Of a DNA stretch of 64,000 nt, positions 34,178 through 42,565 are shown piece after piece. The stretch lies in contig DAHUYM010000001.1 in NCBI GenBank assembly GCA_027315205.1, positions 186,001-250,000 of the forward strand, given 5' to 3'. The DNA is from Leptospirillum sp. GTDB lineage: Bacteria; Nitrospirota; Leptospirillia; Leptospirillales; Leptospirillaceae. A program made the position numbers and the translations under genes. Each line of letters opens with the position of its first letter. The stretch's first letter is position 1. Under the pieces are notes generated by a model. That model had not been told where the DNA came from. It searched no databases and worked only from the letters and a program-made list of their open reading frames with translations.

Positions 34178-34202
34178 CCGGTCCGGGAGAACCCCGGACC
34201 GG
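34178..34202. terminator. Bidirectional terminator between the 33742 gene and the oxidoreductase operon
   Basis: CCGGTCCGGG (34178-34187) pairs with CCCGGACCGG (34193-34202) across a five-base loop. It lies between two convergent transcripts. On the minus strand TCTTCTT follows; the tail on the plus strand is weaker. Confidence 0.7.
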
Positions 34203-34214
34203 AATGTATTTAGA

Positions 34215-34796
34215 TCAAAAACCCCTCGAATTTGTTTTCATTTTCTTCACGTATTCCGTAACCCTGTCGATCTTTTCCGGATTGATATCCCGAACCGTCA
34301 GGTTGGCGTCTTCGTGACCGGCATGGGCACAAAAGGCCATCGTGAAACATGCGGTCCCGCCCCGGATGATTTTGAGCGAAAGATTCGCATAATGGCAATG
34401 GACTCCGACGAACATGCAAACATCGATCTTGTTGTGCCAGATCGTCAGGTTGGGGTGATTGGGGTTGATCTCCGCTTCTGGGTCGATCTTTGGGTATTTC
34501 GGACGATAGTCCGGCATCGGGATGATGTTGATCCCACCTGCAACGGACAGACGTTCTACGGCTTCGGCGGTCCGGATCGATTTTTCATTCCATCCCCACA
34601 GCACGAGAGGTCCGGGAAAGATCGTCGGAACCTTTGCGGAGATAAACTTGCGGGCCGATTCTTCGATGGCCTGCTCTTCATCGACAAGAGCCCCTTCGAT
34701 ATGGCCCTGGCCAGGCTCCGGTAAAATATTTCCGGCCAGCGACGCCGCAGGCGGTAAAAAACCTTCTGGCCCCCTCATCACTTTGTACGGATTCAC
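34215..34796 (-). CDS. Epsilon-type subunit of a 2-oxoacid:ferredoxin oxidoreductase (CODH-beta-like family)
   Basis: A 193-residue protein at the end of the second oxidoreductase operon. It resembles proteins annotated as carbon monoxide dehydrogenase beta-subunit family, which accompany five-subunit pyruvate or 2-oxoglutarate ferredoxin oxidoreductases of reductive-TCA bacteria. Conserved-looking features are GPLVLWGWNEKS, CMFVGVHCHYANLSLKII and AFCAHAGHEDANL. No iron-sulfur ligand set is evident, and no CODH catalytic gene is nearby. GTG 34796 is favoured by AAGGA six bases upstream. Its exact role is unknown. Confidence 0.7.
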   Translation of the reverse strand: MNPYKVMRGPEGFLPPAASLAGNILPEPGQGHIEGALVDEEQAIEESARKFISAKVPTIFPGPLVLWGWNEKSIRTAEAVERLSVAGGINIIPMPDYRPKYPKIDPEAEINPNHPNLTIWHNKIDVCMFVGVHCHYANLSLKIIRGGTACFTMAFCAHAGHEDANLTVRDINPEKIDRVTEYVKKMKTNSRGF

Positions 34797-34892
34797 TCTC
34801 ACTCCTTTTGAAAATCAGTGTTCGTCAGACTGGAAACTGTAACGATCTGGATTGAACGATACCAAAAAAGAAAAAGCCCTTCCGGAGACATG

Positions 34893-35141
34893 CTATGAAA
34901 CGGGCCCTTCTTCCTCTTCTTCGAGTTCTTCTTTGTTAAACGCCTGGCTTATGTAATGATGCGCCCAGTCGAGGTAGATCTTGCCACTGTCCTTGATCGC
35001 AATATAACCAATCAGCTGAGGCTTCATCTTGTCTTCGGTCAACCCGGTTTTCTGGGCCGATTCGATTTCAGCGTTCAAAACGTCCATGAACCGGTCCATC
35101 GCCAAACGAACATCGTCCAGCGCTCTTCTCATATCTCCCAT
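34893..35141 (-). CDS. Small acidic protein of the oxidoreductase operon
   Basis: An 82-residue protein, mainly helical, with an acidic C-terminus (a run of eight Glu/Leu residues then EGPVS). It lies between the delta-subunit ferredoxin gene and the epsilon-type gene, 30 bases after the former. No family recognised. Its place inside the operon suggests an accessory or structural subunit, but this is only positional. Confidence 0.6.
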   Translation of the reverse strand: MGDMRRALDDVRLAMDRFMDVLNAEIESAQKTGLTEDKMKPQLIGYIAIKDSGKIYLDWAHHYISQAFNKEELEEEEEGPVS

Positions 35142-35171
35142 GGACCCGCCACCGCCGTATTCGGACTTTTT

Positions 35172-35384
35172 CTACCTGTTGACCATCTTGATTGCGTTAT
35201 GTTTCGCCGCATCGCACACAACAACACACAGTTCGCATCCCTTGCAACGGGACTCCACAACGTACGCCACTTTCTTTTCATCGTTCATCATAATGCAGTT
35301 CGCTTCCGGACAGTACATGATACAGAGCCGGCACCCCTTGTTCGCAACACACGATTCTTCGCTGATTTCCGCAATATAATACAT
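35172..35384 (-). CDS. 2-oxoacid:ferredoxin oxidoreductase delta subunit (2[4Fe-4S] ferredoxin)
   Basis: A 70-residue ferredoxin-type subunit. Two cluster motifs are seen: a variant first site (SCVANKGCRLCIMYCPEANC) and CKGCELCVVVCD. It passes electrons between ferredoxin and the catalytic core. Paralogous to the longer delta subunit at 39271-39603. Downstream of the gamma gene by 14 bases. Confidence 0.87.
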   Translation of the reverse strand: MYYIAEISEESCVANKGCRLCIMYCPEANCIMMNDEKKVAYVVESRCKGCELCVVVCDAAKHNAIKMVNR

Positions 35385-35398
35385 CTCTGCCGTATCTC

Positions 35399-36085
35399 CT
35401 ACATGTTTTCCGAAACAAAATGCCGGGTCTTGGCAAAATCGATGGCTTGATCGTATGCCACCTTTATCGTGTCCAGATTTTTCTGCAACAGCATTTCTTT
35501 CTTCGCGAACTTTTTCTTGATGGCTTCGTCCAGTGTTGCCGTACCCCCGGAAGCCACATACTTTTTGCCGAACCTGTCCTGAAGCGCCAGGTCGAGCGCT
35601 TCCATTCCGACAACCTGGGTCAGGCCAGCAACGCTTCCGATCATCGCCATATTCGTCGACAGTTCCGTACCCGCAATGTCATGGGCCATTTTCGTGGCCG
35701 GAACATAATAGACAAGCACGTTCAGTTTTTCGAGCTCTTCTTTCTCTGTATCGGAAAGCAGGTCGATATCGTCATTGATGATGACGATGCCATTTTGCTT
35801 GATACCGGAAAAAAACGGCATCGTATAGCTTTTCCCCATCGTGATCACCTGTGGGTGAAAAATCATCACGATATGCGGATAGACCAATTCACCGCGGTCG
35901 TAAATGCGCTCCGGGCCGATCCGAACATAGGATTCTGCCGGGGCCATTCTTTTTTCCGCACCGAAGAACGGATTGGAAATGGCGAACTTGTTTTCCTTGG
36001 AAGCCGCCATCGCCATGATATGCGCGGAGGTCACAACACCCTGACCCCCAAGTCCCGACATGCGGATATTCATTCTTGTTTTCAT
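35399..36085 (-). CDS. 2-oxoacid:ferredoxin oxidoreductase gamma subunit (second operon)
   Basis: A 228-residue gamma subunit with the family signature GLGGQGVVTSAHIMA near the N-terminus, and FFGAEKRMAPAESYVRI. ATG 36085 is used; an open frame reaches 36172 but would overlap the beta gene. It lies 22 bases after the beta gene. It belongs to a complex that reversibly converts acyl-CoA + CO2 + reduced ferredoxin to a 2-oxoacid. Homologous to 39627-40322. Confidence 0.88.
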   Translation of the reverse strand: MKTRMNIRMSGLGGQGVVTSAHIMAMAASKENKFAISNPFFGAEKRMAPAESYVRIGPERIYDRGELVYPHIVMIFHPQVITMGKSYTMPFFSGIKQNGIVIINDDIDLLSDTEKEELEKLNVLVYYVPATKMAHDIAGTELSTNMAMIGSVAGLTQVVGMEALDLALQDRFGKKYVASGGTATLDEAIKKKFAKKEMLLQKNLDTIKVAYDQAIDFAKTRHFVSENM

Positions 36086-36107
36086 AACACACCCCGCTCT
36101 TCGGTTA

Positions 36108-37007
36108 TCAGTTTGCGGATGGCGCGGTCGCGGCCAGTTTTTCGGCCTTCTTCTTCGCAGCCATGTCATCAATGAACGCTTGCGCTTCCGGCGTCACGAA
36201 TTCCCGGAACTTGAATCTTTCACCAGCCGCTTCGGCATCCCGCATTTCCTGAAGTCCTTCCATGGACTGCTTCCCGATTTCCAGAATGCACGGGGTGTAA
36301 ATCTGCAGATAGGTCGGCCCGATTTCCCGGGCGATCAAGACGGCCTGGCGCACGACTCTCTCGACAAGGCTGGGCTTCGAGGTCGTCAAAACAGCAACAT
36401 AGGCGCAACCCGATTCGCGGGCAATTTCCGGCAACCGGACTTTTTCGAACTTCTTTCCGACGGGAGCCATTTTCGCCACAAACCCTTTTTGCATCAGACC
36501 GGATTCCTGGCCACCTGTATTGGCATAAAGTTCATTATCAAAGCAGATTGTGGTGAACCGCTCGCCCCTGAACCAGGATTGAAGCGTCATGTCCAACCCG
36601 ATATCGACCGTCGCCCCGTCGCCGGCAAGAACGATCACATCTTTGTTCTTGTCCGGGAAACGGACGGCTAGCGCCCTTTTCAGACCGGTCGCGATCGCAT
36701 TCTGATTTCCAAAGAGAGAATGGATATTGTGGATAGCAACCATCGGAAACACAAGGCTCGTGCAGCCTGTCGAACCCACCATCACCGTGTCTTCGGGGGC
36801 AGGTATGGAGGCCAAGATGTGCCGAAAAGCGATTGACTCCGGACATCCTGCGCACAAGGAATGCTCCGCGATGAGTTCCGTGGAACTTCCAACGTCCTTC
36901 CACCCACGATCCGGTTTCCCGTATGTTGCATGGGTTACGAGATCCCTGTAATCCTCGGGCATGATGTCCCAGAATTCTTCATTGATTTGGATCTTCTCTT
37001 TACCCAT
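36108..37007 (-). CDS. 2-oxoacid:ferredoxin oxidoreductase beta subunit (TPP-binding, second operon)
   Basis: A 299-residue beta subunit. The thiamine-pyrophosphate motif runs from GDGATVDIGL to DNELYANTGGQ. Cysteines for the proximal [4Fe-4S] cluster are in CAGC, about 27 residues later GSTGC, and YTPC. This is the catalytic subunit. It overlaps the alpha gene by eight bases. The substrate, pyruvate or 2-oxoglutarate, cannot be decided by eye. Confidence 0.92.
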   Translation of the reverse strand: MGKEKIQINEEFWDIMPEDYRDLVTHATYGKPDRGWKDVGSSTELIAEHSLCAGCPESIAFRHILASIPAPEDTVMVGSTGCTSLVFPMVAIHNIHSLFGNQNAIATGLKRALAVRFPDKNKDVIVLAGDGATVDIGLDMTLQSWFRGERFTTICFDNELYANTGGQESGLMQKGFVAKMAPVGKKFEKVRLPEIARESGCAYVAVLTTSKPSLVERVVRQAVLIAREIGPTYLQIYTPCILEIGKQSMEGLQEMRDAEAAGERFKFREFVTPEAQAFIDDMAAKKKAEKLAATAPSAN

Positions 37008-38220
37008 GGATGACCTCCTTCTTGCCCCGGAGCGCTAGAGACTTTTCGATCTCTTCCACAATGACTTCCGGCGGCATGGTCATACCACCTGCCACATGGG
37101 GGCCGGCGATGACGCGTTCGTTTCGTTCGATCGTTGCCTTAATTTCCCGCGCCAGCCAACCGGCAATATTGAACTCGGGAACAAAGATATGCTGAGCGTT
37201 TTTCGTTGCCTGTTTGATTTCTTCGTAAGGGAATGGACGGATTGTCTTGATCTTTACAAGGCCGACCTTCATTCCCTGATCCCTGAAGAGGCGAATGGCC
37301 TCACGGCCTTGGGAAACGGCTGTTCCCGACCCGACAATCAAAATGTCGGCATCGGGATTCTCCACTTCGATCAGGCCGTCCAGAAGCTGGATTGTATGCT
37401 TCCTTGAACGCTCGATCGCGGCCCGGATTTCAAGCTGCCAGCTCGCGTGGGTCATATAGCTGATGTAGTTGGATTTCATCACGAACGGATCCCGCATCAA
37501 ACGGACCGGAGGAGATTCCATATCCATGCAGGTCACCGGAGAGGCATAGGGGTTGTAGTGCGGAAGGACTTTGTTCTCGGGGGTCAGCATCACCATATCC
37601 TTGGTGTGCGTCACGAAGAACCCATCGCAGATGACACCGATCGGAAGGTGAACTTCCGGCTTTTCAGCCACGATATATCCCTTGAGGATGTAATCGTAAA
37701 GATCCTGGGCTGTTTCCGCATGCCACAAAAGCATGCCGGTCTCCAGCATGAATGCGATTTCAAGGGTGTCCGGCTGGATCGAAAGGGGAGAGTTGACACC
37801 GCGGACCGTAAAAACGACCTGAATGGGAAGGCGGCTGCCTGCCCACATCGGGAAATTCTCGAACGCCCTGAGGGTTCCGGGACCTGCCGTCGTGGTAAAA
37901 ACACGAGCGCCTCCGAATGCCCCTCCGGCACACTGTCCCATAACGGCGAACTCCGACTCGCCCCTCATGTAGTCGCCGACATAGCCATCGGCATAGAGCT
38001 CTCCAACCAATGAGGACGCTTCGCTCTGGGGAGTGATCGGATAGGCGACGGAGAAATCGACGCTCGCCCTCTTGACCGCTTCCTTGATGACCTCGGAACC
38101 CGTAAGAAATGCCTGAGTCCTGGGCGACAGAAAGAAAAGTTCATTGGGATCGGTATAGACCTGACCCTTTTTATTGACTGAACCGATTGGCGGTATGCCG
38201 TTACCTTCATAATTTCCCAT
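37000..38220 (-). CDS. 2-oxoacid:ferredoxin oxidoreductase alpha subunit (second operon)
   Basis: A 406-residue alpha subunit. Family features include AYPITPQSEASSLVGELYADG, GECRE-like GESEFAVMGQCAGG, and TTAGPG. ATG 38220 has AAGGAG six bases upstream. First gene of the second operon, served by the promoter at 38411-38440. Paralogous to 41309-42565 (there SYPITPQSETMQQ). The duplicated set is consistent with one complex for pyruvate and one for 2-oxoglutarate. Confidence 0.92.
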   Translation of the reverse strand: MGNYEGNGIPPIGSVNKKGQVYTDPNELFFLSPRTQAFLTGSEVIKEAVKRASVDFSVAYPITPQSEASSLVGELYADGYVGDYMRGESEFAVMGQCAGGAFGGARVFTTTAGPGTLRAFENFPMWAGSRLPIQVVFTVRGVNSPLSIQPDTLEIAFMLETGMLLWHAETAQDLYDYILKGYIVAEKPEVHLPIGVICDGFFVTHTKDMVMLTPENKVLPHYNPYASPVTCMDMESPPVRLMRDPFVMKSNYISYMTHASWQLEIRAAIERSRKHTIQLLDGLIEVENPDADILIVGSGTAVSQGREAIRLFRDQGMKVGLVKIKTIRPFPYEEIKQATKNAQHIFVPEFNIAGWLAREIKATIERNERVIAGPHVAGGMTMPPEVIVEEIEKSLALRGKKEVIHG

Positions 38221-38400
38221 GGGAAACTCCTTCAACTCTCATGATTCACGGTTGAGCGGCACATGCATTTCATATCGTTCATAGACTTCCATGTGGTTTT
38301 TACAATCCGAATCCCAAGCGGCAGAAGCCGATCGTTCGGGGTTGGACACCTAATTTGTCGGGCGATCGGCCGAAGAATCGGATCACTTAACGATTAGGCC

Positions 38401-38446
38401 GGGTCTATGAAATATAAGACCCTCCTTCCACTCAAGTCAAGGAAGG
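38401..38446 (-). promoter_or_regulatory. Promoter of the second oxidoreductase operon with two dyads
   Basis: On the minus strand TTGACT (38440-38435) and TATATT (38416-38411) are 18 bases apart. CCTTCC (38424-38429) and GGAAGG (38441-38446) form a dyad around the -35 box. GGGTCT (38401-38406) and AGACCC (38417-38422) form another around the -10. Together they look like a controlled promoter about 190 bases before the alpha gene. The second dyad could instead be a weak terminator of the upstream genes. Confidence 0.6.
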
Positions 38447-38465
38447 CACGCCCCGGACACGACCT

Positions 38466-38885
38466 TCAGGCCGTCAGAAATCCGAGGGCGAGAGTGTATT
38501 CCGACTCGTCGAACGATTGACCTCTTCGGACGGCCCGGAAATACAGATCGGCATATAGGCCGATGATGCGGTGGAGCGCTTCGTGTTCTGTTTCCCCCTG
38601 CTCGACAAGGCGAAGAAAGGTTTTCTTGACATCCGGGGGGTACTCCCGGTCGATCTGGTTCTGAACGATCAGGTGAAGCGTCACATGCACGAAAGGGTTC
38701 ACAATCTGCCCATTAACTTCCTGAGGCGACGCCGAACCTTCCCCCATCACCCAAAATGGATCGAGTTCAGGGTGGGCATCCATGATTTCCGCGATGCGGG
38801 AATCTTCCCCTTCGAGCTTTTCCGTCTTGCGCTTCTCCGCAATCCGGGAAAATCTCCATTGATCGGAAGGATCAAATAATCTCAT
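38466..38885 (-). CDS. DUF1841-family protein
   Basis: A 139-residue protein matching the DUF1841 family: helical, with the characteristic NPFVHVTLHLIVQNQ followed by YPPDVKKTFLRL and a histidine in EHEALHRIIG. Function of the family is unknown. It begins six bases after the preceding small gene, so it is part of the first oxidoreductase transcript unless the 39225-39246 hairpin stops it. Confidence 0.75.
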   Translation of the reverse strand: MRLFDPSDQWRFSRIAEKRKTEKLEGEDSRIAEIMDAHPELDPFWVMGEGSASPQEVNGQIVNPFVHVTLHLIVQNQIDREYPPDVKKTFLRLVEQGETEHEALHRIIGLYADLYFRAVRRGQSFDESEYTLALGFLTA

Positions 38886-38891
38886 GGCGTA

Positions 38892-39176
38892 TCAGGGTGT
38901 CACAGCCGTATGGATGCGACGCCCTTTCGATCCCATCCCATACACCATGAACACTTTCTTCCCCTGCCGAAGGTGATATGTTTCCCAAGCCGGAGATTGC
39001 CCGTTGTAATATGCCATCGGATCTTCTCCCGAGGCCTTGAAAAAATCGGGATAAGTGAGCCCTGCCTCAAAAACATCGGCCAAAAGACAGTCCGTCGTAA
39101 AACCTGATCCAGTCAGGACAACCCCTTTCAGGATCTCCTGTATTTTGTCAGGATCATTTATTTCCAACGAATCCAC
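38892..39176 (-). CDS. Small hypothetical protein downstream of the first delta subunit
   Basis: A 94-residue protein of unknown family. It contains a single Cys (TTDCLLADVFEAG) and ends in a basic stretch. GTG 39176 has AGGAGG upstream. It sits where the second operon has its 82-residue gene, but the two do not look alike by eye. Separated from the delta gene by 94 bases that include a perfect palindrome. Confidence 0.6.
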   Translation of the reverse strand: MDSLEINDPDKIQEILKGVVLTGSGFTTDCLLADVFEAGLTYPDFFKASGEDPMAYYNGQSPAWETYHLRQGKKVFMVYGMGSKGRRIHTAVTP

Positions 39177-39224
39177 CCCTTAAAACTCCTCCTGGGATCG
39201 AAAAGCAACCACACAAGACAACAA

Positions 39225-39246
39225 GGGCGCAGTCATGACTGCGCCC
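39225..39246. terminator. Perfect 22-base palindrome after the first delta gene
   Basis: GGGCGCAGTCA followed by its exact reverse complement, with no loop bases beyond the centre. On the minus strand TTGTTGTCTTG follows, a poor U-run. It may act as an attenuator or mRNA-stabilising end between the core operon and the two small downstream genes. Confidence 0.55.
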
Positions 39247-39270
39247 CGATAGAACGTTCGCGTATGGGAG

Positions 39271-39603
39271 TCAGTCCTTGCCAGAACCAGTGGCCGCAAC
39301 CTCTGCCACGGCAACGGAAGGCTTTTCAATATGATCCCACTCGTTAGGACGGAAACCGAATTTGGACATTTCGAATGCATGGTCGATATCGGAGATCATC
39401 ACCATTTTGATGGCGTTATGTTTCGCCATATTGTCACAGACAGAGACGCAGATCTCGCAGGCCTTGCACCGATCGACCGCGATGAACGCCGTCTTCATGT
39501 CATTGTCGTACAAGATCGTGTTGGCTTCCGGACAATACTGGGTACACAGCTTACAGGCTGTTTCCGAACAAACTTTCGTATCAACGTGTGCCACAAGGTA
39601 CAT
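39271..39603 (-). CDS. 2-oxoacid:ferredoxin oxidoreductase delta subunit (first operon)
   Basis: A 110-residue 2[4Fe-4S] ferredoxin-type subunit. Cluster motifs are CSETACKLCTQYCPEAN and CKACEICVSVCD. It is 40 residues longer than the paralogue at 35172-35384; the extra C-terminal tail is Ala/Val-rich and may contact other subunits. It follows the gamma gene by 23 bases. Confidence 0.87.
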   Translation of the reverse strand: MYLVAHVDTKVCSETACKLCTQYCPEANTILYDNDMKTAFIAVDRCKACEICVSVCDNMAKHNAIKMVMISDIDHAFEMSKFGFRPNEWDHIEKPSVAVAEVAATGSGKD

Positions 39604-39626
39604 TCGGTTTCTCCTCTACCCTGGTC

Positions 39627-40322
39627 CTAGACCGCGGCTGCCTGACGGTTCTCGGCCCAACCGTGTTCGATCGCATAACTGTATGCCGCCGAAATCACTT
39701 CCATATTCTTTCGGAGGAGCTGTTCCTTCTTGGCGAACTTCCGCTCGATGACATTATCCAACGCGGCCGTTCCACCTGAAACCACAAACCCTTTTCCAAG
39801 GAACCGCTCTTTTACCGACGCCTCCAGGGAAGGAAGATCAGGTATGCCCATGATCGCACTGATGGCTCCCACCATTGCCATGTTCGTGGCAAGGTCGGTT
39901 TCCGCCTTGTCTCGGGCAATGGTCGTTGCCGGAATGTAATAGATCCGGGCATTTCGCTCCTTCAATTCCCGAACTTCGTCCGGTACAAGATTGATCGGAT
40001 GATCGGAATTGATCAGCACGACGCCATCCGGCTTCAAGCCCGAATAGAACGGCATCGTATAGGACTTCCCGTGGGTGATCACCTGAGGGTGAAAGATCAT
40101 GATCACGTTGGGGTAGATGATCTCCCCGATTTCATAGATTTTTCCATTGGCGATCCGGACATAGGACTCAACCGGCGCCAAGCGCTTTTCGGAGCCGAAA
40201 AAGGGGACCAGCGTACTTTCCCCTCCCATGATCACCATGCCGTTGCTCAAGATGTGCGAAGCCGTGACAACACCCTGCCCGCCGATACCGGCCATTCGGA
40301 TGTTATATCTCTTGTTGCTCAT
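39627..40322 (-). CDS. 2-oxoacid:ferredoxin oxidoreductase gamma subunit (first operon)
   Basis: A 231-residue gamma subunit beginning with the glycine motif MAGIGGQGVVTASHIL, followed by FFGSEKRLAPVESYVRI, nearly identical to the gamma subunit of the second operon in that region. It lies eleven bases after the beta gene. Confidence 0.88.
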   Translation of the reverse strand: MSNKRYNIRMAGIGGQGVVTASHILSNGMVIMGGESTLVPFFGSEKRLAPVESYVRIANGKIYEIGEIIYPNVIMIFHPQVITHGKSYTMPFYSGLKPDGVVLINSDHPINLVPDEVRELKERNARIYYIPATTIARDKAETDLATNMAMVGAISAIMGIPDLPSLEASVKERFLGKGFVVSGGTAALDNVIERKFAKKEQLLRKNMEVISAAYSYAIEHGWAENRQAAAV

Positions 40323-40333
40323 CGAGTCCCCCT

Positions 40334-41233
40334 TTAGCTGGCGGTTACGGTTTCTTCAGATTCGGATTTCTTGCCCTTGGCTTTCTTGGCCGGCTCGAGC
40401 GATTCGAGAAATTCCCGGGCTTCATCGGACATGATTTCCATGAATCCGTAACGCGACGTTTCGACTTCCTTCGCATCGTCCAGAACCTTGGGGGTCGGAA
40501 TGGCGTACTCGATATTGCAGGATGTATACGCCTGAATGAACGTAGGTCCGATCTCACGAGCGATCAGGACGGCTTTTCGAATGGTCGAAGCCACCCGCGT
40601 CGGATTCGTGGGAACGACACGTGCAATATAGGCAACGTTTGCAGTCTTTGCCAATCCGATCATGTCCATCTTTTCAAAGAGTTTTCCCTTGGGAGCCATC
40701 TTGAGGATCGATCCCTTTTCCGTCATCCCGGATTCCTGGCCGCCAGTATTTCCGTAAACCTCATTGTCGAGCATGATGGTCGTGAATTTTTCCTTGCGGA
40801 ACCAGGAGTGCATAACCGCGCTGAATCCGATATCCGCCAACCCACCATCGCCAGCCATCACGACGACGTCCTTGGGCTGATCCGGAAACCGCATTGCCAA
40901 TCCACGCTTGAGGCCGGAAGCGACCGCATTGGTGTCCCCATAGTTTCCGTAAATGAAGGGTATGGAAGACTGGGTCAATGCCAGCCGACCGCATCCAGCG
41001 GTTCCGACGAGAATCGTATGTTCGGGACTCGGAAGACCGATCATCGTGAGACGGATAAAAAGAGTCATGGCACATCCCGCACACATGGGATGCTCTTCGA
41101 GAATCTCCTTGAACGTCCCCATTTCAGAGACTTTTTTCTGCTTGCCGTAAGGCCCTCTTTCCACCAGGTCACGGTATTCCTTGGTCATATACTTTTCCAA
41201 AGCGGGAGACATTTTCAGGTTATCGAAACTCAT
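40334..41233 (-). CDS. 2-oxoacid:ferredoxin oxidoreductase beta subunit (first operon)
   Basis: A 299-residue TPP-binding catalytic subunit. The cofactor motif runs from GDGGLADIGF to DNEVYGNTGGQ. Cluster cysteines are in CAGC, VGTAGC and YTSC. ATG 41233 is selected by GGAGGAG seven bases upstream. The C-terminus has a Lys/Glu-rich tail absent from the other beta subunit. Confidence 0.92.
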   Translation of the reverse strand: MSFDNLKMSPALEKYMTKEYRDLVERGPYGKQKKVSEMGTFKEILEEHPMCAGCAMTLFIRLTMIGLPSPEHTILVGTAGCGRLALTQSSIPFIYGNYGDTNAVASGLKRGLAMRFPDQPKDVVVMAGDGGLADIGFSAVMHSWFRKEKFTTIMLDNEVYGNTGGQESGMTEKGSILKMAPKGKLFEKMDMIGLAKTANVAYIARVVPTNPTRVASTIRKAVLIAREIGPTFIQAYTSCNIEYAIPTPKVLDDAKEVETSRYGFMEIMSDEAREFLESLEPAKKAKGKKSESEETVTAS

Positions 41234-41308
41234 GGGCATTCTCCTCCGGAAAACAGGCTTCAACGAACTTCATTATGTGGACAAACCGTAAAAATCTCGT
41301 CATCAATT

Positions 41309-42565
41309 TTAAAATGCGAACTTCTTGTCGGGGAAAATGTACTGGAGGATCATCTCCGTCGGAAGGGAGATCCCTCCGAACACTCTCGGACCAGGAATGA
41401 TCTCCGCTTTCGAGTGGCCATAGAGAGCCGCACAGACATCGCGGTACAGCCATCCTACGCAATTGAATTCGGGAACGAGAATCCGCTTCGCATTTTTGCA
41501 GGCTTCCCTAAGTTCCCGGGTCGGGAATGGCCTGAGCGACCGAACCTTGACCAGTCCGATTCGCTCACCGAGGTCTTCCTCGGCCTGACGGACAGCCTCA
41601 CGGGACTGGGACACGGCACTTCCCGAGGCCACGACGATCGTATCGGCACCAGGATTCACGACTTCGACCAGACCCCCCATATACTTATCGATATATTTGC
41701 GGGATCGCTCCACAGCGGCCCAGACTTCCTGCTGCCAAGAAGCATGCACATGGTAGCTTATGAAATTGCTCTTCTGGATTGGCGCGTCCCGGGAGATGCG
41801 TGCCGGAGGATTTTCATTGTCCATCGCCGGGATGGCTTCATGATACGGATCCCTTGGAGGCAGTTTGATATCCTTCGGAGGCAACATGACATAGCCGCGG
41901 GCATGGGTGACGAAAAAGCCGTCAACGGCAACCGCAACGGGAAGGGTGACCTCCGGGCGCTCGGATATGACAAAAGCTTTCAGGGCGAAATCAAAGAAGT
42001 CCTGCTGGTTTTCGGCATGGAAAACAATATTTCCCGTATTAATGAGGTAAGCCAGTTCGGCGTTGTCCGGCTGAATGGAGAGGGGTGCATTGATCACACG
42101 GCACATGATAAGGAGCACAAGGGGCATCCGGCCTCCCGGCCACGACGCCACCACTTCCATCCCGCGCATGAGCCCCGGACCGGCCGTGGCGGTAAGAGAA
42201 CGGGCGCCGGATCGCGACGAACCGGCGATAGCCGACATAACGCCGAACTCTTCTTCACCTCGGTAATATTCCTTCACATATCCTTCCGCCCAAAGGGCCC
42301 CGACCTGCTGCATCGTCTCGCTCTGCGGGGTGATAGGGTAGGATATGGCCACATCGACATTCGCCCTCCGAATCGCTTCCTTGGCCGCTTCCGATCCCGT
42401 AATGAACGCACGTTCCCTTGGGGCCTCGAAGAACATGTATTCGGGGGAAACCACCCGCTGCCGAGAGGCCTCGGAACCCTGAGTTTCCTTCGGGGCGACC
42501 TGGGGTGCCCCTGCGGTCTCTGTGGTTGTACCTGGCTTTACCTCGACTCCAGCGCTATCTGCCAT
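41309..42565 (-). CDS. 2-oxoacid:ferredoxin oxidoreductase alpha subunit (first operon)
   Basis: A 418-residue alpha subunit. An N-terminal tail of about 40 Ala/Glu/Thr-rich residues is not present in its paralogue. The core has SYPITPQSETMQQVGALWAEG, GEEEFGVMSAIAG and TATAGPG. ATG 42565 has AAGGAGATTGAAA upstream. First gene of the operon, with about 415 bases of gene-free DNA ahead of it. Confidence 0.92.
   Translation of the reverse strand: MADSAGVEVKPGTTTETAGAPQVAPKETQGSEASRQRVVSPEYMFFEAPRERAFITGSEAAKEAIRRANVDVAISYPITPQSETMQQVGALWAEGYVKEYYRGEEEFGVMSAIAGSSRSGARSLTATAGPGLMRGMEVVASWPGGRMPLVLLIMCRVINAPLSIQPDNAELAYLINTGNIVFHAENQQDFFDFALKAFVISERPEVTLPVAVAVDGFFVTHARGYVMLPPKDIKLPPRDPYHEAIPAMDNENPPARISRDAPIQKSNFISYHVHASWQQEVWAAVERSRKYIDKYMGGLVEVVNPGADTIVVASGSAVSQSREAVRQAEEDLGERIGLVKVRSLRPFPTRELREACKNAKRILVPEFNCVGWLYRDVCAALYGHSKAEIIPGPRVFGGISLPTEMILQYIFPDKKFAF

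Follow-up and report, generated by a model that had tools for sequence, protein, structure and literature searches.

The window, by which we mean the whole 64,000-nucleotide stretch of Leptospirillum sp. DNA analyzed here, carries two sets of 2-oxoacid:ferredoxin oxidoreductase genes at positions 34215-42565, raising the question of which enzymes these sets encode, whether they would serve CO2 fixation and how they came to lie side by side. As delineated by ORFs, Pfam matches and synteny, the locus reads forABGE, two small ORFs, porABGE, one small ORF and porD, all on the minus strand, with short gaps within the operons, the largest of which (230 nt) precedes porA. Position 42565, where the initial annotation had ended the feature, is the ATG of forA (41309..42565; PF01855), assigned to the alpha subunit of a 2-oxoglutarate:ferredoxin oxidoreductase (OGOR), and coincides with the beginning of the matching region in the relative G003. 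It is followed by forB (40334..41233), encoding the TPP-binding beta subunit with the motifs CAGC and AGDGGLADIG and recognized also by its identity to the A. aeolicus chain, and by forG (39627..40322; gamma subunit; PF01558), likewise identified by A. aeolicus identity. The set ends with forE (39271..39603), whose ferredoxin-like epsilon product bears Fer4 domains with eight cysteines in two cluster motifs (2x[4Fe-4S]).

Two ORFs (38466-39176) separate the For and Por sets. The first encodes a conserved 94-aa protein (orf94; 38892..39176) and corresponds in position to orf2 of Levican et al.; the second encodes a 139-aa DUF1841 protein (38466..38885; PF08897, 2e-18) at the position of their orf3. 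Within the 230-nt gap 5' of porA, a consensus scan points to a possible por promoter on the same strand (TTGACT-18-TATATT; 38411..38440). The genes assigned to pyruvate:ferredoxin oxidoreductase (POR, or PFOR in A. aeolicus) then follow as porA (alpha; 37000..38220; PF01855 and PF17147), porB (TPP-binding beta; 36108..37007; PF02775), porG (gamma; 35399..36085; PF01558 and the gamma tree) and porE (2x[4Fe-4S] ferredoxin-like epsilon; 35172..35384; PF14697). A further ORF inside the por operon (34893-35141) encodes an 82-aa two-helix protein, s82, and is followed by porD (34215..34802), the product of which is a delta subunit resembling CODH/ACS epsilon (PF02552, 1.6e-38) and belonging to a POR-type delta clade. 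A terminator-like hairpin with an 11-bp G+C-rich stem, recognized by consensus, lies 3' of porD (34178..34202, minus strand). The locus had initially been read as two full alpha-beta-gamma-delta sets; the head-to-tail pair of alpha-beta-gamma-ferredoxin operons stands, but the supposed delta subunit of both sets is the 2x[4Fe-4S] epsilon subunit. Since a PF02552 delta gene occurs once at the locus, behind Por, the Por set alone, with alpha, beta, gamma, epsilon and delta genes all together, is a complete five-subunit set.

This cluster was reported in 2008 from L. ferriphilum DSM 17947 as RTCA cluster 2, forABGE-orf2-orf3-porABGE-D, with co-transcription documented by RT-PCR (Levican et al., PMC2607301), and is therefore already known. 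In that strain, a cluster 1 (ccsAB-acn-ccl-orf1-frd-suc) is found elsewhere in the genome and ATP-citrate lyase is absent (PMC2607301). The gene order in the window is identical to that of cluster 2, and a second ccsAB-acn-ccl-orf1-frd-suc cluster likewise lies elsewhere, so that the locus is largely an ordinary carbon-fixation cluster of the published kind, in another genome. What differs is that the L. ferriphilum paper does not name the 82-aa ORF between porE and porD. New here are the tie of orf94 to POR/OGOR across the Nitrospirota and the accompaniment of POR by s82 in Leptospirillaceae and Nitrospira.

We consider it very probable that forABGE and porABGE-D belong to a Leptospirillaceae chemolithoautotroph and encode an ancient-paralogue pair of OGOR and POR that runs the reductive TCA cycle together with CcsAB/Ccl. 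The For enzyme would carboxylate succinyl-CoA and the Por enzyme acetyl-CoA; combined with citrate cleavage by CcsAB/Ccl, fumarate reductase and succinyl-CoA synthetase, they would drive the cycle. The source genome (2.0 Mb, 99.9% complete) encodes ForA and PorA as its sole POR_N proteins by Pfam search. All further cycle genes covered by the search (ccsAB, ccl, acn, frdAB and sucCD) lie on a different contig from For/Por, where one strand (G000:C39:136000-155500; locus L043) bears genes for putative CcsA, CcsB, aconitase, Ccl, a membrane ORF (orf1), FrdB, FrdA, SucC, SucD and a peroxiredoxin, named from sequence reading, two Pfam searches and gene order. A search for citrate-cleaving genes thus uncovered the citryl-CoA synthetase/lyase route. 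ATP-citrate lyase (aclAB) was not found in the genome, in which the two ATP-grasp_2 proteins are SucC and the CcsA-like protein; this speaks against the ATP-citrate-lyase form of the cycle. No citrate synthase was found in the genome either, the sole protein of that family being the short, 270-aa Ccl. Likewise, genome searches for PDH E1 and OGDH E1 returned a single weak E1_dh match, in a 689-aa frame read as transketolase.

The genome therefore encodes citryl-CoA synthetase and lyase, fumarate reductase, POR and OGOR and lacks citrate synthase, as in the H. thermophilus-type cycle, and autotrophy by this route, as the initial annotation had suggested, is a well-supported prediction from gene content and For/Por orthology. 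Indeed, reductive-TCA gene products have been detected in L. ferriphilum (PMC5772234), and the orthologous A. aeolicus enzymes have been assigned to CO2 fixation in Aquificaceae (PMC10052474). As POR and OGOR reactions are reversible, and as POR would also serve any oxidative need when PDH is not found, the enzymes might instead mainly oxidize their substrates, supplying acetyl-CoA or serving catabolism; we regard this as very unlikely in view of the missing citrate synthase and OGDH, the complete gene cluster for citryl-CoA cleavage and fumarate reductase, and the assignment of the Aquificaceae orthologues. Two observations count against the reductive-cycle reading, namely the missing OGOR-type delta (see below) and the presence of RuBisCO-family genes. 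The latter, of the RuBisCO-large family, are located at two places (G000:C11:299773-300594 and G000:C17:4087-4911), and a role in the Calvin cycle is not expected; L. ferriphilum has one RuBisCO large-chain gene, the role of which was left open (PMC5772234).

The substrates were assigned by orthology to the A. aeolicus enzymes, for which in-gel activity combined with mass spectrometry had shown what each operon produces (PMC10052474). The For chains share 63% (alpha), 64% (beta) and 64% (gamma) identity with A. aeolicus OGOR, vs. 52.5%, 43% and 51% with PFOR, while the Por chains share 56%, 61% and 59% identity with PFOR, vs. 50%, 45% and 57% with OGOR. In the alpha and gamma trees, For grouped with A. 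aeolicus OGOR and Por with PFOR; the portion of the beta tree that was displayed is consistent with this, and a larger alpha tree gave the same grouping. The masses listed for A. aeolicus OGOR are 42.7 (alpha), 32.6 (beta), 25.5 (gamma) and 9.0 kDa (epsilon), those for PFOR 45.1, 32.2, 26.7, 9.1 and 21.3 kDa (delta), along with a 20.9-kDa Uma2 protein (PMC10052474). Except for the OGOR delta, masses computed for both Aquificota sets that served as our reference matched these values within 0.1 kDa. The Aquificota gene orders (delta-alpha-beta-gamma-epsilon for OGOR; epsilon-delta-alpha-beta-gamma for PFOR) also agree with the assignment.

Both sets are thus orthologous to activity-assigned alpha, beta and gamma chains of the five-subunit type, and the expectation of one pyruvate and one 2-oxoglutarate enzyme of this type held up, each probably acting on the substrate of its A. 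aeolicus counterpart. Both alpha chains are matched by NCBIfam equivalog models for several 2-oxoacids, but no match exceeds the cut-off of its model, and NCBIfam names were therefore left out of the alpha specificity call. While these sub-threshold matches would accommodate a set acting mainly on another 2-oxoacid, such as 2-oxoisovalerate or oxalate, each set is nearer to either the OGOR or the PFOR of A. aeolicus, both with assigned activities, making such a specificity extremely improbable. The OGOR/POR pair has in common with the five-subunit enzymes of A. aeolicus and H. thermophilus the orthologous alpha, beta and gamma subunits, a matching epsilon, a delta for POR and one dedicated enzyme per substrate. 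The Aquificaceae differ in having a delta gene in each operon, other gene orders, and no relatives of orf94, DUF1841 or s82 nearby.

The initial annotation had further proposed that the two sets arose by tandem duplication and then diverged into pyruvate and 2-oxoglutarate enzymes. The For and Por alpha chains are 48-49% identical, and in the trees built for alpha, beta and gamma, each set grouped with the matching A. aeolicus operon, the two Leptospirillaceae copies falling into separate clades, both of which also include counterparts from Nitrospira, Nitrospinota, Aquificota and Campylobacterota (Sulfurovum). Forcing the Leptospirillaceae copies into one clade cost 283 (alpha), 280 (beta) and 144 (gamma) log-likelihood units, and a single Leptospirillaceae clade was rejected by AU tests in all three cases (p = 3e-6, 8e-53 and 2e-5, respectively; all <= 2.2e-5). 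Moreover, the tandem order is kept in genera g1, g2 and g4 but broken in g3, in which about 37-38 kb of a single contig separate the For and Por alpha genes (G002, G008). A local duplication in the Leptospirillaceae lineage with subsequent divergence into two specificities, which the homology and head-to-tail order of the sets would fit, can hardly be credited given these clades, the AU tests and the distant sets in g3.

As judged from the trees, For and Por are ancient paralogues that split before the Leptospirillaceae and were either inherited or transferred. Because two Sulfurovum loci (L112, L116) also carry a head-to-tail For-Por pair, the pairing itself may be old or may have been transferred as such, and an ancestral tandem duplication may predate the split of the phyla. 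Trees, gene order and whole-genome searches together confirm CcsAB/Ccl-type reductive TCA genes in a member of the Leptospirillaceae and correct the earlier notion that the sets were duplicated locally.

The For operon lacks a PF02552 gene. The genome contains two such genes, porD and an unlinked copy (G000:C11:307486-307935; L044:7397-7978) that is 74% identical to porD, is followed by a 159-aa ORF and lies near nadA-, asd- and leuB-like genes; both are of the POR type. A PDB sequence search returned no match for delta. In the delta tree, which has several long branches and an arbitrary root and thus provides good rather than final evidence, all Leptospirillaceae copies formed one group within the POR-type clade, and none fell into the OGOR-linked clade of Nitrospira, Troglogloeales and Aquificota. 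Because of this placement, the OGOR-type delta seems to have been lost in Leptospirillaceae, and a POR-type delta may serve both OGOR and POR. The unlinked PF02552 genes of L. ferriphilum were named forD1/forD2 (PMC2607301); in contrast to that label, the unlinked delta of our genome belongs to the POR-type clade, and by the delta tree forD1 and forD2 would be POR-type paralogues as well. The Nitrospira OGOR operon retains its own delta, whereas the OGOR operon of Nitrospinaceae (Nitrospina) lacks one, like that of the window. The complete relative G003 has two pairs of delta genes, four in all, outside the por operon (C1:2229398-2230599 and 2530082-2531541; L046, L047), one pair being strongly diverged. 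In G004 (genus g5 of the same family, 89% complete), a delta is present and ForA/PorA and orf94 were not found, reflecting an assembly gap or a real loss.

The sets had also been described as the O2-tolerant five-subunit type. The five-subunit type is borne out by orthology, but tolerance does not follow from it: the H. thermophilus five-subunit enzymes have been described as O2-tolerant (PMC8115632), whereas in air the A. aeolicus five-subunit OGOR lost 95% and PFOR 100% of its activity (PMC10052474). Owing to this sensitivity of the A. aeolicus enzymes, the five-subunit type alone is no proof of O2 tolerance in the source organism. For the question of how oxygen-labile POR/OGOR can work in aerobes, the useful addition of this analysis is a handful of conserved proteins linked to these enzymes, which supply candidates for testing.

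Foremost among these is orf94, which had no match in Pfam and NCBIfam searches. The window protein is 59-65% identical to its Nitrospinaceae relatives, and the gene adjoins For or Por in both Leptospirillaceae and Nitrospinaceae. Among 118 Nitrospirota genomes, 45 have the enzymes, and 44 of these also contain orf94, the exception being G073 (77% complete), in which ForA is present; orf94 never occurs on its own, being absent from all 73 genomes that lack the enzymes. As the pattern clusters in few families, the number of independent events behind it is far below 45. Among 30 genomes reached via named loci, 16 contain orf94; it is missing from those of Aquificota, Campylobacterota and Bacillota, and G021 (a 2.5-Mb Nitrospinaceae chromosome) and G034 have ForA but no orf94. 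In N. defluvii, orf94 adjoins neither For nor Por. In a Troglogloeales stretch (L154:7611-8205), two orf94 copies lie in tandem, with For/Por not adjoining in the stretch examined. The orf94 fold model is confident (pLDDT 89) and had no fold match in the PDB (best E 1.6). A DUF1841 gene adjoins orf94 in Leptospirillaceae and Nitrospinaceae; our literature search found no paper on DUF1841. Near the Aquificota and Campylobacterota loci, searches for relatives of orf94, DUF1841 and s82 gave nothing better than E 0.098.

The closest counterparts outside the family are the five-subunit POR/OGOR of Nitrospira and Nitrospinota, with orf94 in nearly all genomes examined and s82 linked to POR in Nitrospira. 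We tentatively suggest, while holding it on balance doubtful, that orf94 (with DUF1841 in some lineages) and s82 are unrecognized accessory proteins of these Nitrospirota/Nitrospinota enzymes, acting as assembly, protection or regulatory subunits, and that the Leptospirillaceae OGOR, having lost its own delta, relies instead on a delta of the POR type or on an accessory protein. Iterated profile searches place s82 relatives after porE in both Leptospirillaceae and Nitrospira, and in Nitrospira also after forA, on the opposite strand; the predicted s82 structure is a helical hairpin (pLDDT 81).
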